Origin: a bacterium UBA3734
GTDB lineage: Bacteria; Bacteroidota; Bacteroidia; Bacteroidales; Bacteroidaceae
Length of the DNA: 21,200 nucleotides
Direction: 5' to 3'
Assembly (NCBI GenBank): GCA_002372575.1
Contig: DFHC01000124.1
Span: 1-21,200 of the forward strand
Positions 9,245 to 20,341 of the stretch are shown piece by piece. The translations under genes and the position numbers were made by a program. The stretch's first letter is position 1; every line of letters starts with the position of its first letter. Under the pieces are notes generated by a model that was given only the letters and a program-made list of their open reading frames with translations, was not told the DNA's origin and searched no databases.

Positions 9245-10015
9245 ATGAAAAAATACTGTATCGACCTGACGGTTTGCGCCGTTGAACGCGTGAACGAGCG
9301 CCACGTGTTGCTCAGGCTGACGGCGGAAGAAACGCTGCCGCCGATGCTGCCCGGACAGTTTGCGGAAGTGCGCGTGGACGGGAGTTCCACGACGTTTTTG
9401 CGCCGCCCCATTTCCATTCATTTCGTCGATGAGGAGAGCAACGAGCTGTGGCTCCTGGTGGCGATGGTGGGCGACGGCACGCGACGATTGGCGGAACTGA
9501 AAGTGGGTGAGAAACTGAACTGCGTGCTGCCGCTGGGACGCGGATTTTCGCTGCCAAGCAGCGCGAAACAGCGATTTTTGCTCGTGGGCGGCGGCGTGGG
9601 CGTGGCTCCGCTGCTGTTGCTGGCCAAGGAAATCTGCCGGATGGGCGGCGAAGCGACGTTTCTGCTCGGCGCGCGCACGGAGTCGGACTTGCTTGAACTG
9701 GAACTATATAATAGGTACGGGCGCGTGTGCGTAACAACGGAAGACGGCACGGCTGGCGTGCGCGGCATGGTGACCGACCACCCCGTTTTGAGCGAGCCTT
9801 TCGACAGGATGAGCGTGTGCGGTCCGCTGCCGATGATGAAAGCGGTGGCGGCAGTGGCACGACAGAAGGGAACGCCCTGCGAGGTGTCGCTGGAAAACAT
9901 GATGGCCTGCGGCGTGGGCGCGTGTCTGTGTTGCGTGGAAAAGACGACGAAAGGCAACATCTGTGTGTGTACGGATGGACCAGTGTTTAATACGGAAAAT
10001 ATATGGCTGACTTAA
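9245..10015 (+). CDS. pyrK: Dihydroorotate dehydrogenase B, electron transfer subunit
   Basis: This 256-residue protein carries electrons from the PyrD FMN to NAD+ in class 1B dihydroorotate dehydrogenase, a cytoplasmic step of UMP synthesis. The N-terminal FAD-binding barrel has the motif RRPISI (about residues 59-64), the NAD-binding half has [18 protein letters not shown] (about 112-129), and the C-terminus carries the [2Fe-2S] motif with Cys222, Cys227, Cys230 and Cys242 in [14 protein letters not shown]...CTDGPVF. Two extra cysteines (229 and 240) sit beside ligand positions. A TTG at 9218 would extend the frame, but ATG 9245 gives the usual family N-terminus. It overlaps pyrD by 13 bases, consistent with a coupled two-subunit enzyme. 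Confidence 0.95.
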
Positions 10016-10914
10016 CGACAAAAATAGGTGGATTGACACTGAAAAACCCCGTGATGACTGCCTCGGGAACCTTCGGCTATGGGCTTGAATTTCAAGACTT
10101 TGTGCCTTTGGAAGAGCTCGGCGGCATCATCGTGAAGGGCACAACGCTGCACCCGCGCGAGGGCAACGACTATCCGCGCATGGCCGAAACTGCGAGCGGA
10201 ATGCTCAACTGCGTGGGACTGCAGAACAAGGGCGTCGATTACTTCTGCGAGCAGATTTATCCGCAGTTGAAGGATATCGACACGAATTTCATCGTGAACG
10301 TAAGTGGTTCGGCGACAGAGGATTACGCCGAATGCGCCGCCCGCATCGATGCACTTGAAAAAATTCCTGCCATCGAGCTGAACATCTCGTGTCCGAACGT
10401 GAAACAGGGCGGCATGGCCTTCGGAACCTCGTGCGAGGGCGCAGCAAGCGTGGTCAGAGCCGTGCGCCAGCGCTATCGCAAGACGCTCATCGTGAAACTC
10501 TCGCCCAACGTCACGAACATTGCCGACATCGCCCGCGCCTGCGAAGCCGAGGGTGCCGACAGCGTCTCGCTCATCAACACGCTGATGGGCATGGCGGTGG
10601 ACATTGAACGGCGGAAGCCCGTGCTCTCGATTGCCACGGGCGGATTGTCGGGTCCGGCGGTGAAACCCGTGGCGCTGCGCATGGTGTGGCAGGTGGCACA
10701 GGCCGTGAAAATTCCCGTCGTGGGACTTGGCGGCATCATGACTGCCGAGGATGCGATTGAATTCCTGATGGTGGGCGCGTCGGCCATCGAAATCGGCACA
10801 GCCAACTTCATCGACCCCACCGTCACCATCAAGGTGCGCGACGGCATCAGCGACTGGCTCGACAAGCATGGTTGTCGGTCGGTCGGGGAAATCGTGGGAA
10901 GCCTCACCCCCTAA
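10003..10914 (+). CDS. pyrD: Dihydroorotate dehydrogenase, class 1B catalytic subunit
   Basis: This 303-residue FMN enzyme oxidises dihydroorotate to orotate in pyrimidine synthesis. It has [15 protein letters not shown] near the N-terminus, the active-site segment [11 protein letters not shown] with catalytic-base Cys130 (Cys marks class 1; the PyrK partner marks class 1B), the FMN phosphate-binding pattern [29 protein letters not shown] in two parts, and the usual length. It starts inside the end of pyrK. Its last three codons and stop (LTP, TAA at 10912-10914) fall inside a GC-rich palindromic repeat that also occurs inside aguB, so the natural C-terminus may have been altered slightly by repeat insertion. 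It is probably co-transcribed with aguB. Confidence 0.95.
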
Positions 10915-10972
10915 CCCCCTCTCCAAAGGGAGAAGGGGAACATTCTTCATTACTCATTCCTCACTACTCATT
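10901..10972. repeat. GC-rich palindromic repeat plus ATTCTTCA-like repeat at the pyrD-aguB junction
   Basis: CACCCCCTAACCCCC at 10905-10919 is shared (one C fewer) with the insert in aguB at 11632. It continues into an imperfect palindrome: C-rich arm 10915-10924, AAA, G-rich arm 10928-10938. From 10941 to 10972 follows a degenerate direct repeat of TTCATTACTCATT type. Together they supply the pyrD stop and fill the gap to the aguB start completely. Confidence 0.75.
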
Positions 10973-11908
10973 ATGAAAATCGGAATCATCCAACAGCACA
11001 ACAGTGCTGACAGAAACGAGAATATGACGCGCCTTGCGGCGAAAATCCGCCAGCTGGCAGCCGACGGCGCAGAACTCATCGTATTGCAGGAGCTGCACAA
11101 CGGACTATACTTCTGCCAGACGGAAAATGTGGACATTTTCGACCAGGCAGAGCCGATTCCCGGGCCTTCGACCGACTTTTTCGGCGCGCTGGCCAAGGAA
11201 CTCGCCGTGGTCATCGTCACCTCGCTTTTCGAGCGTCGCGCCGCCGGCCTCTACCACAACACCGCCGTGGTACTCGAAAAAGACGGCTCCATCGCTGGGA
11301 AATACCGCAAAATGCACATTCCCGACGACCCCGCCTACTACGAAAAATTCTATTTCACCCCGGGCGACCTCGGCTTCCACCCCATCCAGACCAGCGTGGG
11401 GCGGCTGGGCGTGCTCGTTTGCTGGGACCAGTGGTATCCCGAGGCCGCACGACTGATGGCCTTGCAGGGCGCGGAACTGCTCATCTACCCCACTGCCATC
11501 GGCTACGACAGCCACGACACGCCCGACGAGCAAGAGCGGCAGCGCGAAGCATGGACAACCGTGCAGCGCGGCCACGCCGTGGCCAACGGACTGCCCGTTG
11601 TGGCTGTGAATCGCGTGGGTTGGGAGAGCCCCACCCCTAACCCCTCCCCCGCAGGGAGGGGAACCATGGATACAGGTGCCTCCCCCAGTGGGGGGAGGTT
11701 GGAGGGGGCTGGCATCCAATTCTGGGGCAGTTCGTTCGTGGTGGGACCGCAGGGCGAATTTCTCTATCGCGCGCCCAACGACGAAGAGGTGGCGCAGGTG
11801 GTCGAGGTGGATCTCCGGCGCAGCGAACAAGTGCGACGATGGTGGCCCTTCCTGCGCGACCGTCGCATCGAGGCCTACGACGACTTGCTCAAACGATTTG
11901 CTGACTGA
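10973..11908 (+). CDS. aguB: N-carbamoylputrescine amidase with in-frame repeat insert
   Basis: This 311-residue nitrilase-superfamily enzyme should hydrolyse N-carbamoylputrescine to putrescine, CO2 and ammonia in the cytoplasm (agmatine route). The catalytic triad is visible: Glu40 in LQELHN, Lys113 in KYRKMHIPDDP and Cys150 in LVCWDQWYPEAARLMAL. The motif FWGSSFVVGPQGE and the end RRWWPFLRDRRIEAYDDL fit the AguB branch. Residues 219-246 are encoded by a GC-rich double palindrome (11627-11710) and have no expected counterpart in the family, where the segment before the Ile-Gln-Phe-Trp-Gly motif is shorter. The frame is kept, so the enzyme may still work. The ATG at 10973 directly follows a repeat and gives the family N-terminus. 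No agmatine deiminase gene is in the window. Confidence 0.9.
   Translation: MKIGIIQQHNSADRNENMTRLAAKIRQLAADGAELIVLQELHNGLYFCQTENVDIFDQAEPIPGPSTDFFGALAKELAVVIVTSLFERRAAGLYHNTAVVLEKDGSIAGKYRKMHIPDDPAYYEKFYFTPGDLGFHPIQTSVGRLGVLVCWDQWYPEAARLMALQGAELLIYPTAIGYDSHDTPDEQERQREAWTTVQRGHAVANGLPVVAVNRVGWESPTPNPSPAGRGTMDTGASPSGGRLEGAGIQFWGSSFVVGPQGEFLYRAPNDEEVAQVVEVDLRRSEQVRRWWPFLRDRRIEAYDDLLKRFAD
11627..11710. repeat. In-frame GC-rich double palindrome inside aguB
   Basis: Two perfect 8-base stems are seen: CCCCTCCC (11641-11648) with GGGAGGGG (11654-11661), and CCTCCCCC (11679-11686) with GGGGGAGG (11691-11698). CACCCCTAACCCCTCC at 11632-11647 matches the repeat at the end of pyrD. The apparent insert is 84 bases (28 codons), a multiple of three, and is read in the frame that avoids its TAA. 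Confidence 0.8.
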
Positions 11909-17498: not shown

Positions 17499-20276
17499 TT
17501 AAAAAAACTTCAAAATCGGATTCATGAAGCGCGTGAGCTGGCGCGGACGCGGATTGCCGTGGTAGTCGGTGCGCGTGAGGCATTGGGCCACGTAGAGGCG
17601 TTTTCGAGCTCGCGTGATGGCGACGTAGAACTTTCGGGCATCCTCGGCCAGTGCCGCGGGGTTGTTGCGGTTGAAGAACGAGGGATAGCGGTCTTCCACG
17701 GCATCGAAAACGATGACATTGTCGAACTCCAGCCCCTTCGCCTTGTGGACGGTAGTGACGAAAATGCGGTCGTCGAGGCTGCGGCTGCCGCAGAGGTCGG
17801 CCTCTTTCAGCGTGTTGATTTCCACGATGTGGGCCGAGAGCTGTTGCGCGAGCGACTGCGCCTGGTCGGTGGCGATGAGTTCGTCGGCGAGGTAGCGCAC
17901 GATGTAGTCGAGCTTCTTCACGGGCTGAATCGACTCAGCCTCCACCAAATTCTGGTGGAAGCGCAGCAATTCGCCGACGAGCGGAGCCACATCATCATCG
18001 GCATAAAGTTTTTTCTGTGCCTCGAGATACTCCTGCCGATAGTGGCGGCGGAAGGCGCCCACGCGCTCCTGCACGCGCTTCTGACGACGAAATTCCTGCT
18101 GTCGGGGCACGGCCTCGCGGGCTTTTTCGTGGCAATAGCGCACGAGCGAGCAGGTCGCAGCCACGTCGGCATCGGCCAGATGGCTGTTTTCGCCCTCCAG
18201 ATGGAGCATTTCGAGCAGCGATTTCAGCTTGTATTGCTTCAGGCTGGGCTTGAGCAGTCGCGTGAGCTTCAGCGAGTCGAAGATGGGCGGTCGGGCGATG
18301 GGCGTGAGGCCGCGCCGGTGGCAGTTGTTGCGCAGCATCTGCCAGTCGAAATTCACGTTGTGGCCGAGCAGTACGCAGCCGTCGGCATAGTCGAGGAAGC
18401 GCTGCAGCGCCTCCGTGGGCGGCAGTTGCTCGTGGTGGCGCAGCTCCTCGATGATGGGATTGTCGAGGTCGCCGAGTTTTTCGGGGATGGGGCGGTCGGT
18501 CTGCAGATAGACGTTGAACTGCGAACCCTCGACCACTTCGCCCTGCCGCAGGCGTACGGCGGCAATCTGCACGATGTCGTCGTCGTGGACGTCGGTGCCG
18601 GTGGTTTCCGTGTCGAAAACGACGATGTCGCTATGGTCGTAGGCCTTGAGAAACTCCTCGAGATAGGTGCTGTCGTCATAGACCAGGAAATCGCTCGGCA
18701 GCATGGCGTTCTGGCGCAGCAGCTGCACGAAATTGCGGGCATAGGCATTGGAGGCCATCACGCCGAATCCCCTCAGGAGCCGCGCCCAGGCAATGAAATT
18801 ATGCTCGTTGGCCAGCACATTGAGGTGCGCCAGCAGCAACTTTACCTCTTTCGACGCGAAAAGGTCCTCGCCCGACACTTTGAAGTGCTCCTGCCCCATT
18901 TTCTGCAGCTCTTGGCTGATGCGGTCGGCGTCGTCGTTGGCATTCACGATAATGGCCGTGGTTTCCTTGGGATAGGCTTCGGCGAGCACCTGCGCCATGT
19001 GCGAGGCGTCGTAGTATTCGGTTTCGAGCGTGTTGCTGCGGAGAATGCGTAGCCGCTGTTCGCCGGCGGTTTCGTCGTTGGAGGCGTGTTCGGCAGAGGG
19101 TTTCGGCAGCAGTGCGCTGTCGATGTCGAGCACCATGCGGGCGTATTCGTTGAACACGTTGAGCAGATACTGCGGCGAGCGATGGTTCGTGGAAAGATGG
19201 TGGATTTGGCTGCCGCAACGCTCGCGCAGCAGGTTGAGCGTGCTCAGGCGGGCGCCCATAAACGAGAAAATGGCCTGCTGCTCGTCGCCGAGGTACATGA
19301 CGGTGGGACCCCCCCTCCCGGCCTCCCCCAAATGGGTGAGGGGTTTCGAGGAAGGAGGAGCGAGATTCGAGGAGGTGTCGGTGATGAGGTCGATGATGGC
19401 GAGTTGCAGTGGGTTCAGGTCCTGCACCTCATCCACCTGAATCCAGCGGTATTTCCTGAACTCCTGCACGCCCGAACTCCCGAACTCCTGAACTTCTGAA
19501 CTCCCCAAACAATCATACGTCATGATCAGCAAATCCTCGAAATCCACGAGGTGGTGCTCACGCTTGTATTGCTCGTATTGCGCCGCCACGGTCATCTTGC
19601 GCAGCAGTCGGTCGATGATGGCCTGCGAGCCGAGGTCGTAGCCGGCGGCAGAGCGCAGGTCGGTGTGGAAAAAGTCGGCGTGGTCGTAAATGTCGAGCAT
19701 GGCGACGGCATCGAAATCCCTCTTCTGCACCTCGCAGATTTTCCGCATCGCCGCCACGTCGTCGGCATTGCAGCTCTCGGGGTGCAGGCGCAGCTCGCGC
19801 GGCTGCGAGGAGCGGAGCTGCCGCATGAAGTGCGAGAAATGGATGATTTCGTAGTAGGCCCGACGGCGCACGGCGTTCTCCATCACCTGCATCTCGTCTT
19901 CGTCGAGATAGCGCGCCACGATGCTCACGGCGTCCTCCTCGTCGATGATCGACGTCTCGCTCGGAATGATGCTGTTTTCAAACAGGAATTTCGAGCAGAA
20001 GCGATGCACGTTGCCCACATACACCTCTCGCACTTCCTCGTCGCTGATGTTCTGCTGAATGCGCTCCATCATGCCGCGCGCCGCACGGTTCGTGAAGGTC
20101 AGGCAGAGCATCTGGTCGTAGGCCACGCTGTCGCGCTCATGCGCCCGACGGATGCGCTCGGTCAGAATCTGCGTTTTTCCGCATCCGGGCGGCGCCAGCA
20201 CCAAGTGGTAGCCGCCCTCGGCATCGATTACGCGCTGTTGGCTTGCGTCGGGGGTGAATGTCGCGTTTTTGCCCAT
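17499..20276 (-). CDS. UvrD/REP-type superfamily 1 helicase with internal DnaQ-like exonuclease domain
   Basis: This 925-residue protein should unwind DNA 3'-5' with ATP and degrade DNA or RNA ends, probably in repair. Helicase motifs are intact: Walker A APPGCGKTQ (Lys34), motif Ia LTFTNRAA, motif II VDEVQDLN, motif III YLGDEQQAIFSFMGA, motif IV STNHRSP, motif V TTVHKAKGLEFDNVIVF and motif VI YVAITRARKRLYVA. Between motifs IV and V (about residues 550-715) lies a DEDDh exonuclease domain with FDTETTGTD (Asp555, Glu557), GHNVNFDWQML and HLADAD (His699, Asp704). Two repeat-derived stretches are inserted in frame: residues 258-273 (GSSEVQEFGSSGVQEF) and about 300-324. An upstream ATG at 20306 precedes the promoter box at 20295-20302, so ATG 20276 is chosen. 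Confidence 0.93.
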   Translation of the reverse strand: MGKNATFTPDASQQRVIDAEGGYHLVLAPPGCGKTQILTERIRRAHERDSVAYDQMLCLTFTNRAARGMMERIQQNISDEEVREVYVGNVHRFCSKFLFENSIIPSETSIIDEEDAVSIVARYLDEDEMQVMENAVRRRAYYEIIHFSHFMRQLRSSQPRELRLHPESCNADDVAAMRKICEVQKRDFDAVAMLDIYDHADFFHTDLRSAAGYDLGSQAIIDRLLRKMTVAAQYEQYKREHHLVDFEDLLIMTYDCLGSSEVQEFGSSGVQEFRKYRWIQVDEVQDLNPLQLAIIDLITDTSSNLAPPSSKPLTHLGEAGRGGPTVMYLGDEQQAIFSFMGARLSTLNLLRERCGSQIHHLSTNHRSPQYLLNVFNEYARMVLDIDSALLPKPSAEHASNDETAGEQRLRILRSNTLETEYYDASHMAQVLAEAYPKETTAIIVNANDDADRISQELQKMGQEHFKVSGEDLFASKEVKLLLAHLNVLANEHNFIAWARLLRGFGVMASNAYARNFVQLLRQNAMLPSDFLVYDDSTYLEEFLKAYDHSDIVVFDTETTGTDVHDDDIVQIAAVRLRQGEVVEGSQFNVYLQTDRPIPEKLGDLDNPIIEELRHHEQLPPTEALQRFLDYADGCVLLGHNVNFDWQMLRNNCHRRGLTPIARPPIFDSLKLTRLLKPSLKQYKLKSLLEMLHLEGENSHLADADVAATCSLVRYCHEKAREAVPRQQEFRRQKRVQERVGAFRRHYRQEYLEAQKKLYADDDVAPLVGELLRFHQNLVEAESIQPVKKLDYIVRYLADELIATDQAQSLAQQLSAHIVEINTLKEADLCGSRSLDDRIFVTTVHKAKGLEFDNVIVFDAVEDRYPSFFNRNNPAALAEDARKFYVAITRARKRLYVAQCLTRTDYHGNPRPRQLTRFMNPILKFF
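19305..19379. repeat. In-frame GC-rich palindromic repeat inside the helicase gene
   Basis: On the plus strand a C-rich arm (19309-19319) and CCTCCCCCA (19322-19330) face GTGAGGGG (19336-19343), a layout like the aguB insert. It encodes 25 residues (about 300-324) between helicase motifs II and III, including the stretch PLTHLGEAGRGG, where the family normally passes directly from an Ile/Leu-rich helix to TVMYLGDEQQ. Confidence 0.7.
19458..19505. repeat. 24-base tandem duplication of the GAACTCCTG family inside the helicase gene
   Basis: The 48 bases encode GSSEVQEF and GSSGVQEF back to back just before motif II. The plus strand contains GAACTCCTG-type units like those of the 17-base array at 17443-17494. 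Confidence 0.75.
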
Positions 20277-20294
20277 CTCGTCGCTCTTTTCCCG

Positions 20295-20302
20295 CAAAGT
20301 TA
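20295..20302 (-). promoter_or_regulatory. Bacteroidetes -7 box for the helicase gene
   Basis: The minus strand reads TAACTTTG, matching TAnnTTTG, 18 bases before ATG 20276. About 20 bases upstream only TTG is present as a -33 element. Confidence 0.55.
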
Positions 20303-20341
20303 GCATTTTTCCGGCAAAACGGCAATTTTCTTATCATTTAT

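Follow-up and report, generated by a model that had tools for sequence, protein, structure and literature searches.

A double palindrome in frame in aguB of a Bacteroidaceae bacterium as a probable derivative of DUF559 cassettes

How does a GC-rich double palindrome come to lie in frame within a conserved enzyme gene? The question is raised by aguB, the gene of N-carbamoylputrescine amidase, in a stretch of 21,200 nucleotides (hereafter, the window) from the Bacteroidaceae bacterium UBA3734 (assembly GCA_002372575.1, contig DFHC01000124.1). The original prediction, made from the letters of the window, was a mobile palindromic element tolerated in genes and comparable in idea to Rickettsia palindromic elements (RPEs). 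Dispersed copies, many of them in frame, support this view, the likeness to RPEs being an analogy. The link to cassettes that carry the domain DUF559 goes beyond it. We consider, with a probability of about 0.72, that the insert in aguB derives, as a non-autonomous form with two ends, from a mobile palindrome-DUF559-palindrome element.

The aguB insert and its dispersed family

Re-reading of the sequence confirmed the predicted 84-bp segment (11627-11710) with two perfect 8-base, GC-rich hairpins in frame in aguB. The first base of the insert falls on the boundary of codon 219, and its 28 codons contain no stop and read SPTPNPSPAGRGTMDTGASPSGGRLEGA. Three parts make up the insert: a B-type unit, a linker of 13 bp and an inverted A-type unit of 33 bp, the C-rich tails pointing outward (Table 1). 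The NCBIfam model TIGR03381 matched AguB in one stretch across the insert (E = 1.9e-85), with a score of 286.6, below the curated cut-off of 410. Folded as RNA, the insert reached -54.4 kcal/mol, which was equalled by 2 of 200 dinucleotide shuffles. The four bases ahead of hairpins 1 and 2, on both strands, were CTAA/GGTT and GGTG/CCAA. The shared word CCTAACCCC alone was not significant in the window (three matches with at most one mismatch vs 2.43 expected), and the inverted-repeat search within the window had a minimum length of 14 and was therefore blind to 8-bp hairpins. A match to Rfam mir-9168 (23.9 bits against a cut-off of 100) was taken as chance.

The AlphaFold2 model of AguB had a mean predicted local distance difference test (pLDDT) score of 79.4, with 224 of 311 residues at 70 or above. 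Insert residues 223-244 scored below 50 and formed a loop between the strands 215-218 and 248-251. Scores under 50 were likewise obtained for residues 118-131 and for most of 295-311.

AguB was present in 47 of 60 relatives. The loop that holds the insert, measured from the E of the motif NRxGxE, has 8 residues in 23 of the 29 relatives aligned, 9 to 20 in the other six and 28 here. The 28-residue insert was found in none of these 29 loci; its conservation across distant AguB proteins, which would have spoken against the original prediction, was thus not observed. The predicted addition of 28 codons holds as a gross count, whereas the net gain over most relatives is 20 codons, because their loci are not empty. 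Among the 120 closest AguB proteins, inspected by eye, the double was present in P0001-P0008 (98-99% identity) and P0011 (88%), and the A-type end alone in several. The linker varied among close proteins (MDTG vs MEIE). Two other groups of close proteins had a different repeat, NSQLSTVNCQLST, and a short loop with the sequence WEDSPEGAS, respectively. Further, the DNA of the aguB loop in one relative (G027, locus L032), GCACCCCTCCATCTCCCCACCATAGAGGGAGGG, resembles a decayed unit.

The search for further copies in the genome, which the original prediction had called for, yielded dozens, many of them in frame in conserved genes. In the 1.88-Mb assembly, which is 58.5% complete, BLAST with the 84-bp insert returned 43 matches at E<=10, one of them being the query itself. 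Four others were near-full-length doubles (E = 8e-14 to 1.4e-7), and halves of 32-33 bp reached 100% identity; the A-type unit of aguB recurs twice on contig C84 over 32 bp at 100% identity, and has many other copies. Pattern searches gave 36 A-type places and 51 B-type rows. After removal of duplicates over the fetched loci, 77 distinct units remained (36 A and 41 B). Three unit sites lie in the window, namely in aguB, at the end of pyrD and in a UvrD-like open reading frame (ORF), the last of which was absent from the original prediction. The pyrD gene (10003-10914) ends at a TAA (10912-10914) inside a B-type unit, which was found by reading and missed by the B pattern. As predicted, this TAA is read as the stop in pyrD, and the aguB insert is stop-free. 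A search for the pyrD motif beside aguB in relatives matched at the window's own locus only.

Many units were read through. Fifty-three of the 77 lay within an open frame of at least 110 amino acids with 25 amino acids on either side, shadow frames included. We compared 40 unit-containing open frames, some of them probable shadow frames, with NCBIfam (cut-off 1e-10 or 1e-5). One family match spanned a unit in 18: MutS, the UvrD-like ORF (RecB-like model), HutU, the CCA-adding enzyme, oligopeptidase, DsbD, FolC (two units), MnmA, an ABC-F ATPase (three units), AguB, MurB, RlmB, DapB, ZupT, RNase HII, SufB, TsaE and TyrS. The model match was split into two or more stretches in PriA, Fmt, RsgA, ApbE and a glycosyltransferase, and no family match was obtained for 12 of the 40 at these cut-offs. 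Judging from the family matches, the unit-bearing proteins are presumably functional. A units were open in all six frames in 26 of 36 cases, as compared with 39% of composition shuffles and 18% of the genome background; their openness thus modestly exceeds the expectation from composition.

In the UvrD-like ORF, the RecB-like model NF010485 matched residues 250-543, across the unit at residues 329-341. A different in-frame repeat, EVQEFGSSGVQEF, occupies residues 279-291 of a 943-residue UvrD-like open frame (17502-20330, minus strand), and DnaQ-type exonuclease models also matched the ORF at about 562-740. Elsewhere, a B-type unit lies in frame within an apparent signal peptide (MKKKLLLGRDNYLPLPSGGVRGGLLLLFALFSLIVSAQ, locus L023). 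In two genomes of the same genus (L332 and L325), a double palindrome lies in frame upstream of a putative CarB start. In L332 this double palindrome also follows an apparent CarA C-terminus and may fuse CarA and CarB.

Table 1. Features of the window discussed in the text (nucleotide positions in the window)
Feature	Position	Strand	Basis
aguB, N-carbamoylputrescine amidase, 311 aa, host gene of the insert	10973..11908	+	ORF; TIGR03381; 29 relatives aligned
B-type unit of the insert: tail AGCCCCACCCCTAA, hairpin, AAC; read SPTPNPSPAGRGT	11627..11664	+	sequence, genome copies; limits by eye
Hairpin 1, 8 perfect bp, loop of 5 (CCGCA); arms CCCCTCCC/GGGAGGGG, 11641-11648 with 11654-11661	11641..11661	+	sequence, folding
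Linker between both units	11665..11677	+	sequence; limits by eye
A-type unit of the insert, 33 bp, inverted; coding-strand reading ASPSGGRLEGA	11678..11710	-	genome copies
Hairpin 2, 8 perfect bp and one G-U; arms CCTCCCCC/GGGGGAGG, 11679-11686 with 11691-11698	11679..11698	-	sequence, folding
Single B-type unit over the pyrD stop	10900..10941	+	sequence, ORF
Single A-type unit in frame in the UvrD-like ORF (17499-20306, minus strand), read KPLTHLGEAGRGG	about 19311..19343	+	pattern search

DUF559 cassettes bounded by inverted units

Units of this family also bounded DUF559 domains. PriA contains a DUF559 domain (401-499) between two A units in inverted orientation (residues 365-378 and 499-512), and the DUF559 domain of the CCA-adding enzyme (128-236) has an A unit (234-247) at its end. 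DUF559 was found in 51 of 100 genomes searched, and the genome of UBA3734 itself gave two matches. Inverted repeats were then sought within 220 bp on both sides of the gene, with a local score of at least 30. Strong inverted flanks were found at 18 of 30 DUF559 loci identified with Pfam, as compared with 0 of 29 AguB loci and 1 of 253 random intervals from the same loci. The layout of these flanks was that of the aguB element, with the tail outside and the hairpin inside. Inverted end repeats of the same kind around DUF559 make the cassette a candidate autonomous partner of the short units, as expected of a miniature inverted-repeat transposable element.

A second set comprised 80 named Bacteroidota loci, mostly from Prevotella and relatives, two of which were dropped for short flanks. 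Flanks scoring at least 30 were found at 67 of 78 DUF559 loci vs 0 of 574 random intervals, a share that may be overstated, as the ranking of these loci used their similarity to six DUF559s, of which several came from palindrome-flanked loci. Outside Bacteroidota, flanks of at least 40 were found at 6 of 12 DUF559 loci, fetched from 49 plasmid-collection records with a DUF559 match, vs 0 of 18 random intervals (maximum 35). These six loci were from Deinococcus (twice), Pseudanabaena, Sphingomonas, Azospirillum and Qipengyuania.

The association also appeared from the side of the units. With the aguB insert as query, unit matches lay 44-65 bp from DUF559 in three genomes (G034, G016 and G001), and in G001 this was the only match in the genome at E<=0.001. 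In G023, 12 of the 13 listed end matches (14 in all) were in inverted pairs, one pair being around DUF559. When the 65-bp end of one cassette was searched in 100 genomes, DUF559 and the unit occurred together in 31, DUF559 alone in 20, the unit alone in 7 and neither in 42 (odds ratio 9.3, p = 1.6e-6), and the corresponding counts in the same-genus subset were 28, 9, 7 and 16 (p = 0.001); these p-values are indicative only, the genomes being related and many of them incomplete.

Hosts of cassettes included leucyl-tRNA synthetase (LeuRS; L197, L219, L223 and L268), valyl-tRNA synthetase (L252, L266 and L282), ABC-F (L205 and L279), acetylglutamate kinase, IspF, RNase H, guanylate kinase, a helicase, an NAD-dependent epimerase or dehydratase, alpha-xylosidase and a LegC-family aminotransferase. 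Two of nine cassette-host ORFs in one batch had no family match at the strict cut-off of 1e-90. DUF559-bearing aminoacyl-tRNA synthetases were seen in several Bacteroidota groups. Two loci from Psychroflexus (L257 and L277, LeuRS by motif only) are long fused ORFs with flank scores of 13 and 16, and are perhaps settled copies. Further, DUF559 was repeatedly fused to the N-terminus of guanylate kinase (L221, L224, L248, L253, L265, L280, L283 and L288), the call being by NCBIfam for L221 and by the motif SAPSGSGKST only for the other seven.

The domain itself resembles nucleases. E15, D43, E54, D56, H60 and D69 were among the invariant residues in 30 DUF559 domains. The DUF559 profile matched PDB entries 3hrl (E = 2e-31) and 3r3p, the homing endonuclease I-Bth0305I (E = 2.9e-7), and a structural model (pLDDT 87.9) had template modeling (TM) scores of 0.71 to 3hrl and about 0.70 to 3r3p, with a weaker similarity to Vsr. 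DUF559 thus combines a nuclease fold with conserved polar and acidic residues, as in homing endonuclease genes. The family is presumably the one also named COG2852 or endonuclease domain-containing protein.

Alternating site states and competing explanations

We propose that the complete element consists of a palindromic unit, a short gene of a DUF559 (Vsr-like) nuclease and the same unit inverted. Complete cassettes sit between genes or in frame in host genes, where the DUF559 domain can continue the host reading frame. Internal deletion of a cassette would leave a double palindrome, and further loss a single 33-40-bp unit or an empty site. DUF559 would cut or nick at the palindromic ends or at targets, and repair would copy the element, as well as short units in trans, in a homing-like manner. 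Selection would purge insertions that are out of frame or in the protein core, so that in-frame copies in flexible loops survive. The GC-rich A unit, usually stop-free in all six frames, would help insertion.

At one site in priA and two in the CCA-adding enzyme, homologues differed in what they carried at the same position: a complete palindrome-DUF559-palindrome cassette, one unit, a double or no insert. Classed roughly by regular expression, the PriA site in 120 homologues comprised 9 cassettes, 8 single units, 1 B-type double, 3 other states, 96 empty sites or tiny remnants and 3 proteins without the motif; the Pfam listing gave 12 PriA cassettes, the extra three being without the site motif. 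CCA site 1 comprised 6 cassettes, 20 single units, 4 with two units or B-type, 27 other, 62 empty and 1 without the motif, and CCA site 2 comprised 16 cassettes, 20 single units, 6 double or B-type, 9 other, 26 empty and 43 without the motif. At CCA site 2 the genome of UBA3734 has a single unit, and relatives such as P0267 and P0280 have a cassette. Short units were more numerous than full cassettes.

The direction of change was visible in one protein. P0241 is 98% identical to the query over 63% of its length. At CCA site 1 it has lost the nuclease domain, whereas both ends and the residues with which the nuclease frame begins are still present; it was counted among the 20 single units at this site and is really a deleted cassette. 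The step from cassette to double has thus occurred at least once. P0241 is the one clear case of internal deletion, and none was observed in aguB.

Further, the flanks of the priA site in P0122 look mosaic, in that the N part is 97.9% identical to P0121 and the C part 98.4% identical to P0152, which has an empty site. Such mosaic flanks are suggestive of homing-like cleavage of the site; chimeras in metagenome assemblies could also produce them. The distances between PriA proteins and between their DUF559 domains were weakly correlated (Spearman 0.32, p = 0.09, 8 proteins), and vertical descent and homing are therefore not separated.

Several observations weigh against our reading. The nearest neighbour of the DUF559 domain was also in PriA for 11 of 12 PriA copies; DUF559s thus tend to group by host site, which points to full cassettes that stay at their sites and do not often jump. 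Within UBA3734, the two DUF559 genes share only about 56% identity. None of the 120 closest AguB proteins, the longest having 333 amino acids, contained a DUF559 cassette, and the cassette origin of the aguB copy therefore rests on other sites. No obvious target-site duplication was seen by eye in 30 copies, and no exact empty site at the DNA level. Within the genus, 9 genomes had DUF559 without the unit and 7 the reverse, in a sample where many genomes are incomplete and with one query unit that misses some variants. A reversed-pattern control gave 24 rows vs 51 for the B pattern, and some B-type units may be chance; the control for the A pattern (35 rows vs 36) was uninformative, this pattern being almost its own reverse. 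Mismatched flank pairs from different DUF559 loci scored at least 30 in 92 of 870 cases, inverted flanks were also found at 12 of 27 RAYT loci (3 of 30 dropped for short flanks), and the ranking of the second set of loci, mentioned above, points the same way. We infer that DUF559 moves the units, and its nuclease activity is likewise putative. Taken together, grouping by host site and the mosaic-looking priA flanks are probably better accounted for by homing-like spread or by long residence than by full cassettes that jump often.

The most durable alternative, which we nonetheless regard as unlikely, is that the double palindromes came first and spread by other means, with DUF559 as a passenger that uses them as insertion hot spots. 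Insertion sequences are known to sit in repetitive extragenic palindromes (REPs), for example ISPpu9 (PMC8450116), and the grouping of DUF559s by host site and the excess of units over DUF559 matches in the genome of UBA3734 (77 vs 2) are as this alternative would have it. P0241, however, goes the opposite way, from cassette to double, with residues of the nuclease start left behind, and flanks agreed more within a locus (18 of 30 pairs scoring at least 30) than between loci.

Somewhat less probable still is that these are ordinary REPs or REPINs moved by RAYT (TnpA-REP, a Y1 transposase), with DUF559 incidental. Their appearance, inverted pairs of GC hairpins, is the same; PMC6006769 places subclasses 2.4 and 2.6 in Bacteroidetes and reports that REPs can be in frame; and Y1_Tnp matches were present in 39 of 60 relatives, in addition to the inverted flanks at RAYT loci. 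Against this, Y1_Tnp had no match in the 58.5% complete genome of UBA3734, five unit queries matched none of 30 RAYT loci at E<=0.01, and RAYT and units were not associated in 60 genomes (15/24/8/13, odds ratio 1.0). Further, the tetranucleotide GT[AG]G was absent from the 5' foot of both hairpins of the aguB copy, the copy in which it was sought.

Slow decay alone, with old hairpins growing or shrinking by replication slippage in tolerant loops and no enzyme, is very improbable: tandem repeats in the same loops of relatives (NSQLSTVNCQLST in AguB, RSEERGA in PriA and HPTPNT in the CCA enzyme) show that these loops accept many repeats, but closely similar copies at dozens of unrelated sites require copying from site to site, and a nuclease domain of about 105 residues cannot arise by slippage.

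As a separate observation, the tandem-repeat peptides in the palindrome-taking loops are unrelated to the units; examples include P0012 and P0067 (AguB), P0125 and P0178 (PriA) and P0245 (CCA enzyme, QHPTPNT). From their sequences, the loops that take palindromes appear to be general repeat-accepting loops in these bacteria.

Relation to known systems and meaning

In-frame palindromes are already known as RPEs and intragenic GTAG/CGTC REPs (PMC3733652). In the examined text of that paper these palindromes are short and often form dimers of 20-30 codons; they lie in frame in genes for housekeeping and repair, a UvrD/Rep helicase among them, in loops thought to tolerate inserts. In-frame insertion in many unrelated genes, whose function here is judged from family matches, is a feature shared with RPEs. 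GTAG REPs differ by their GTAG foot, which the aguB hairpins lack. The examined text contains no link to DUF559, and "Prevotella" and "Bacteroides" have no occurrence in the paper.

Small nucleases flanked by REPs are also known, as RAYTs (PMC6006769). There, subclasses 2.4 and 2.6 have inverted hairpin pairs flanking a small nuclease gene, and in-frame REP insertions are reported within tnpA-REP genes. Dispersed GC hairpins, often in inverted pairs, are a REPIN feature found here as well. The enzyme differs, being a Y1 HUH transposase there and a protein of Vsr-like fold here, and RAYTs were not associated with these units.

I-Bth0305I (PDB 3r3p) has a similar fold and a detectable sequence relation to DUF559. 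It differs in that the PDB entry describes a mobile intron protein, whereas the ends of DUF559 cassettes are palindromes. The ShiLan domain, an insert in a phage methylase that hides an HNH nuclease, is likewise a stop-free insert in the host frame in a loop thought to be tolerant, and differs in its HNH nuclease in another frame, its phage host and the absence of palindromic ends from the abstract (PMC11855218). Inteins share the in-frame insertion, with an endonuclease domain, in conserved enzymes; no intein family was among the models listed for the fusion ORFs, up to 25 per protein at strict cut-offs, which do not amount to a full test. The G-quadruplex repeats of PMC4692102 are another repeat. 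Among open-licence papers, under the name DUF559, no link of such palindromes to DUF559 was found.

The wider proposal, which in our judgment stands at even odds, is of a widespread, undescribed class of elements in which a Vsr-like DUF559 protein between palindromic ends homes or transposes into permissive gene loops, persists unspliced as a domain in frame and seeds REP-like peptides throughout the proteome. Such a class would be an analogue of REPINs built on an unrelated enzyme and would extend beyond Bacteroidota.

If our reading is true, DUF559 would be the missing enzyme for the GC-rich palindromes dispersed in Prevotella and other Bacteroidota, and this unnamed domain would gain a function. 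It would also provide a further route, besides inteins and RPEs, for selfish DNA inside essential proteins. Insert peptides like SPTPNPSPxGRG, ASPSGGRLEGA and APSNLPQLGEA would then likely be relics of mobile elements and not domains.
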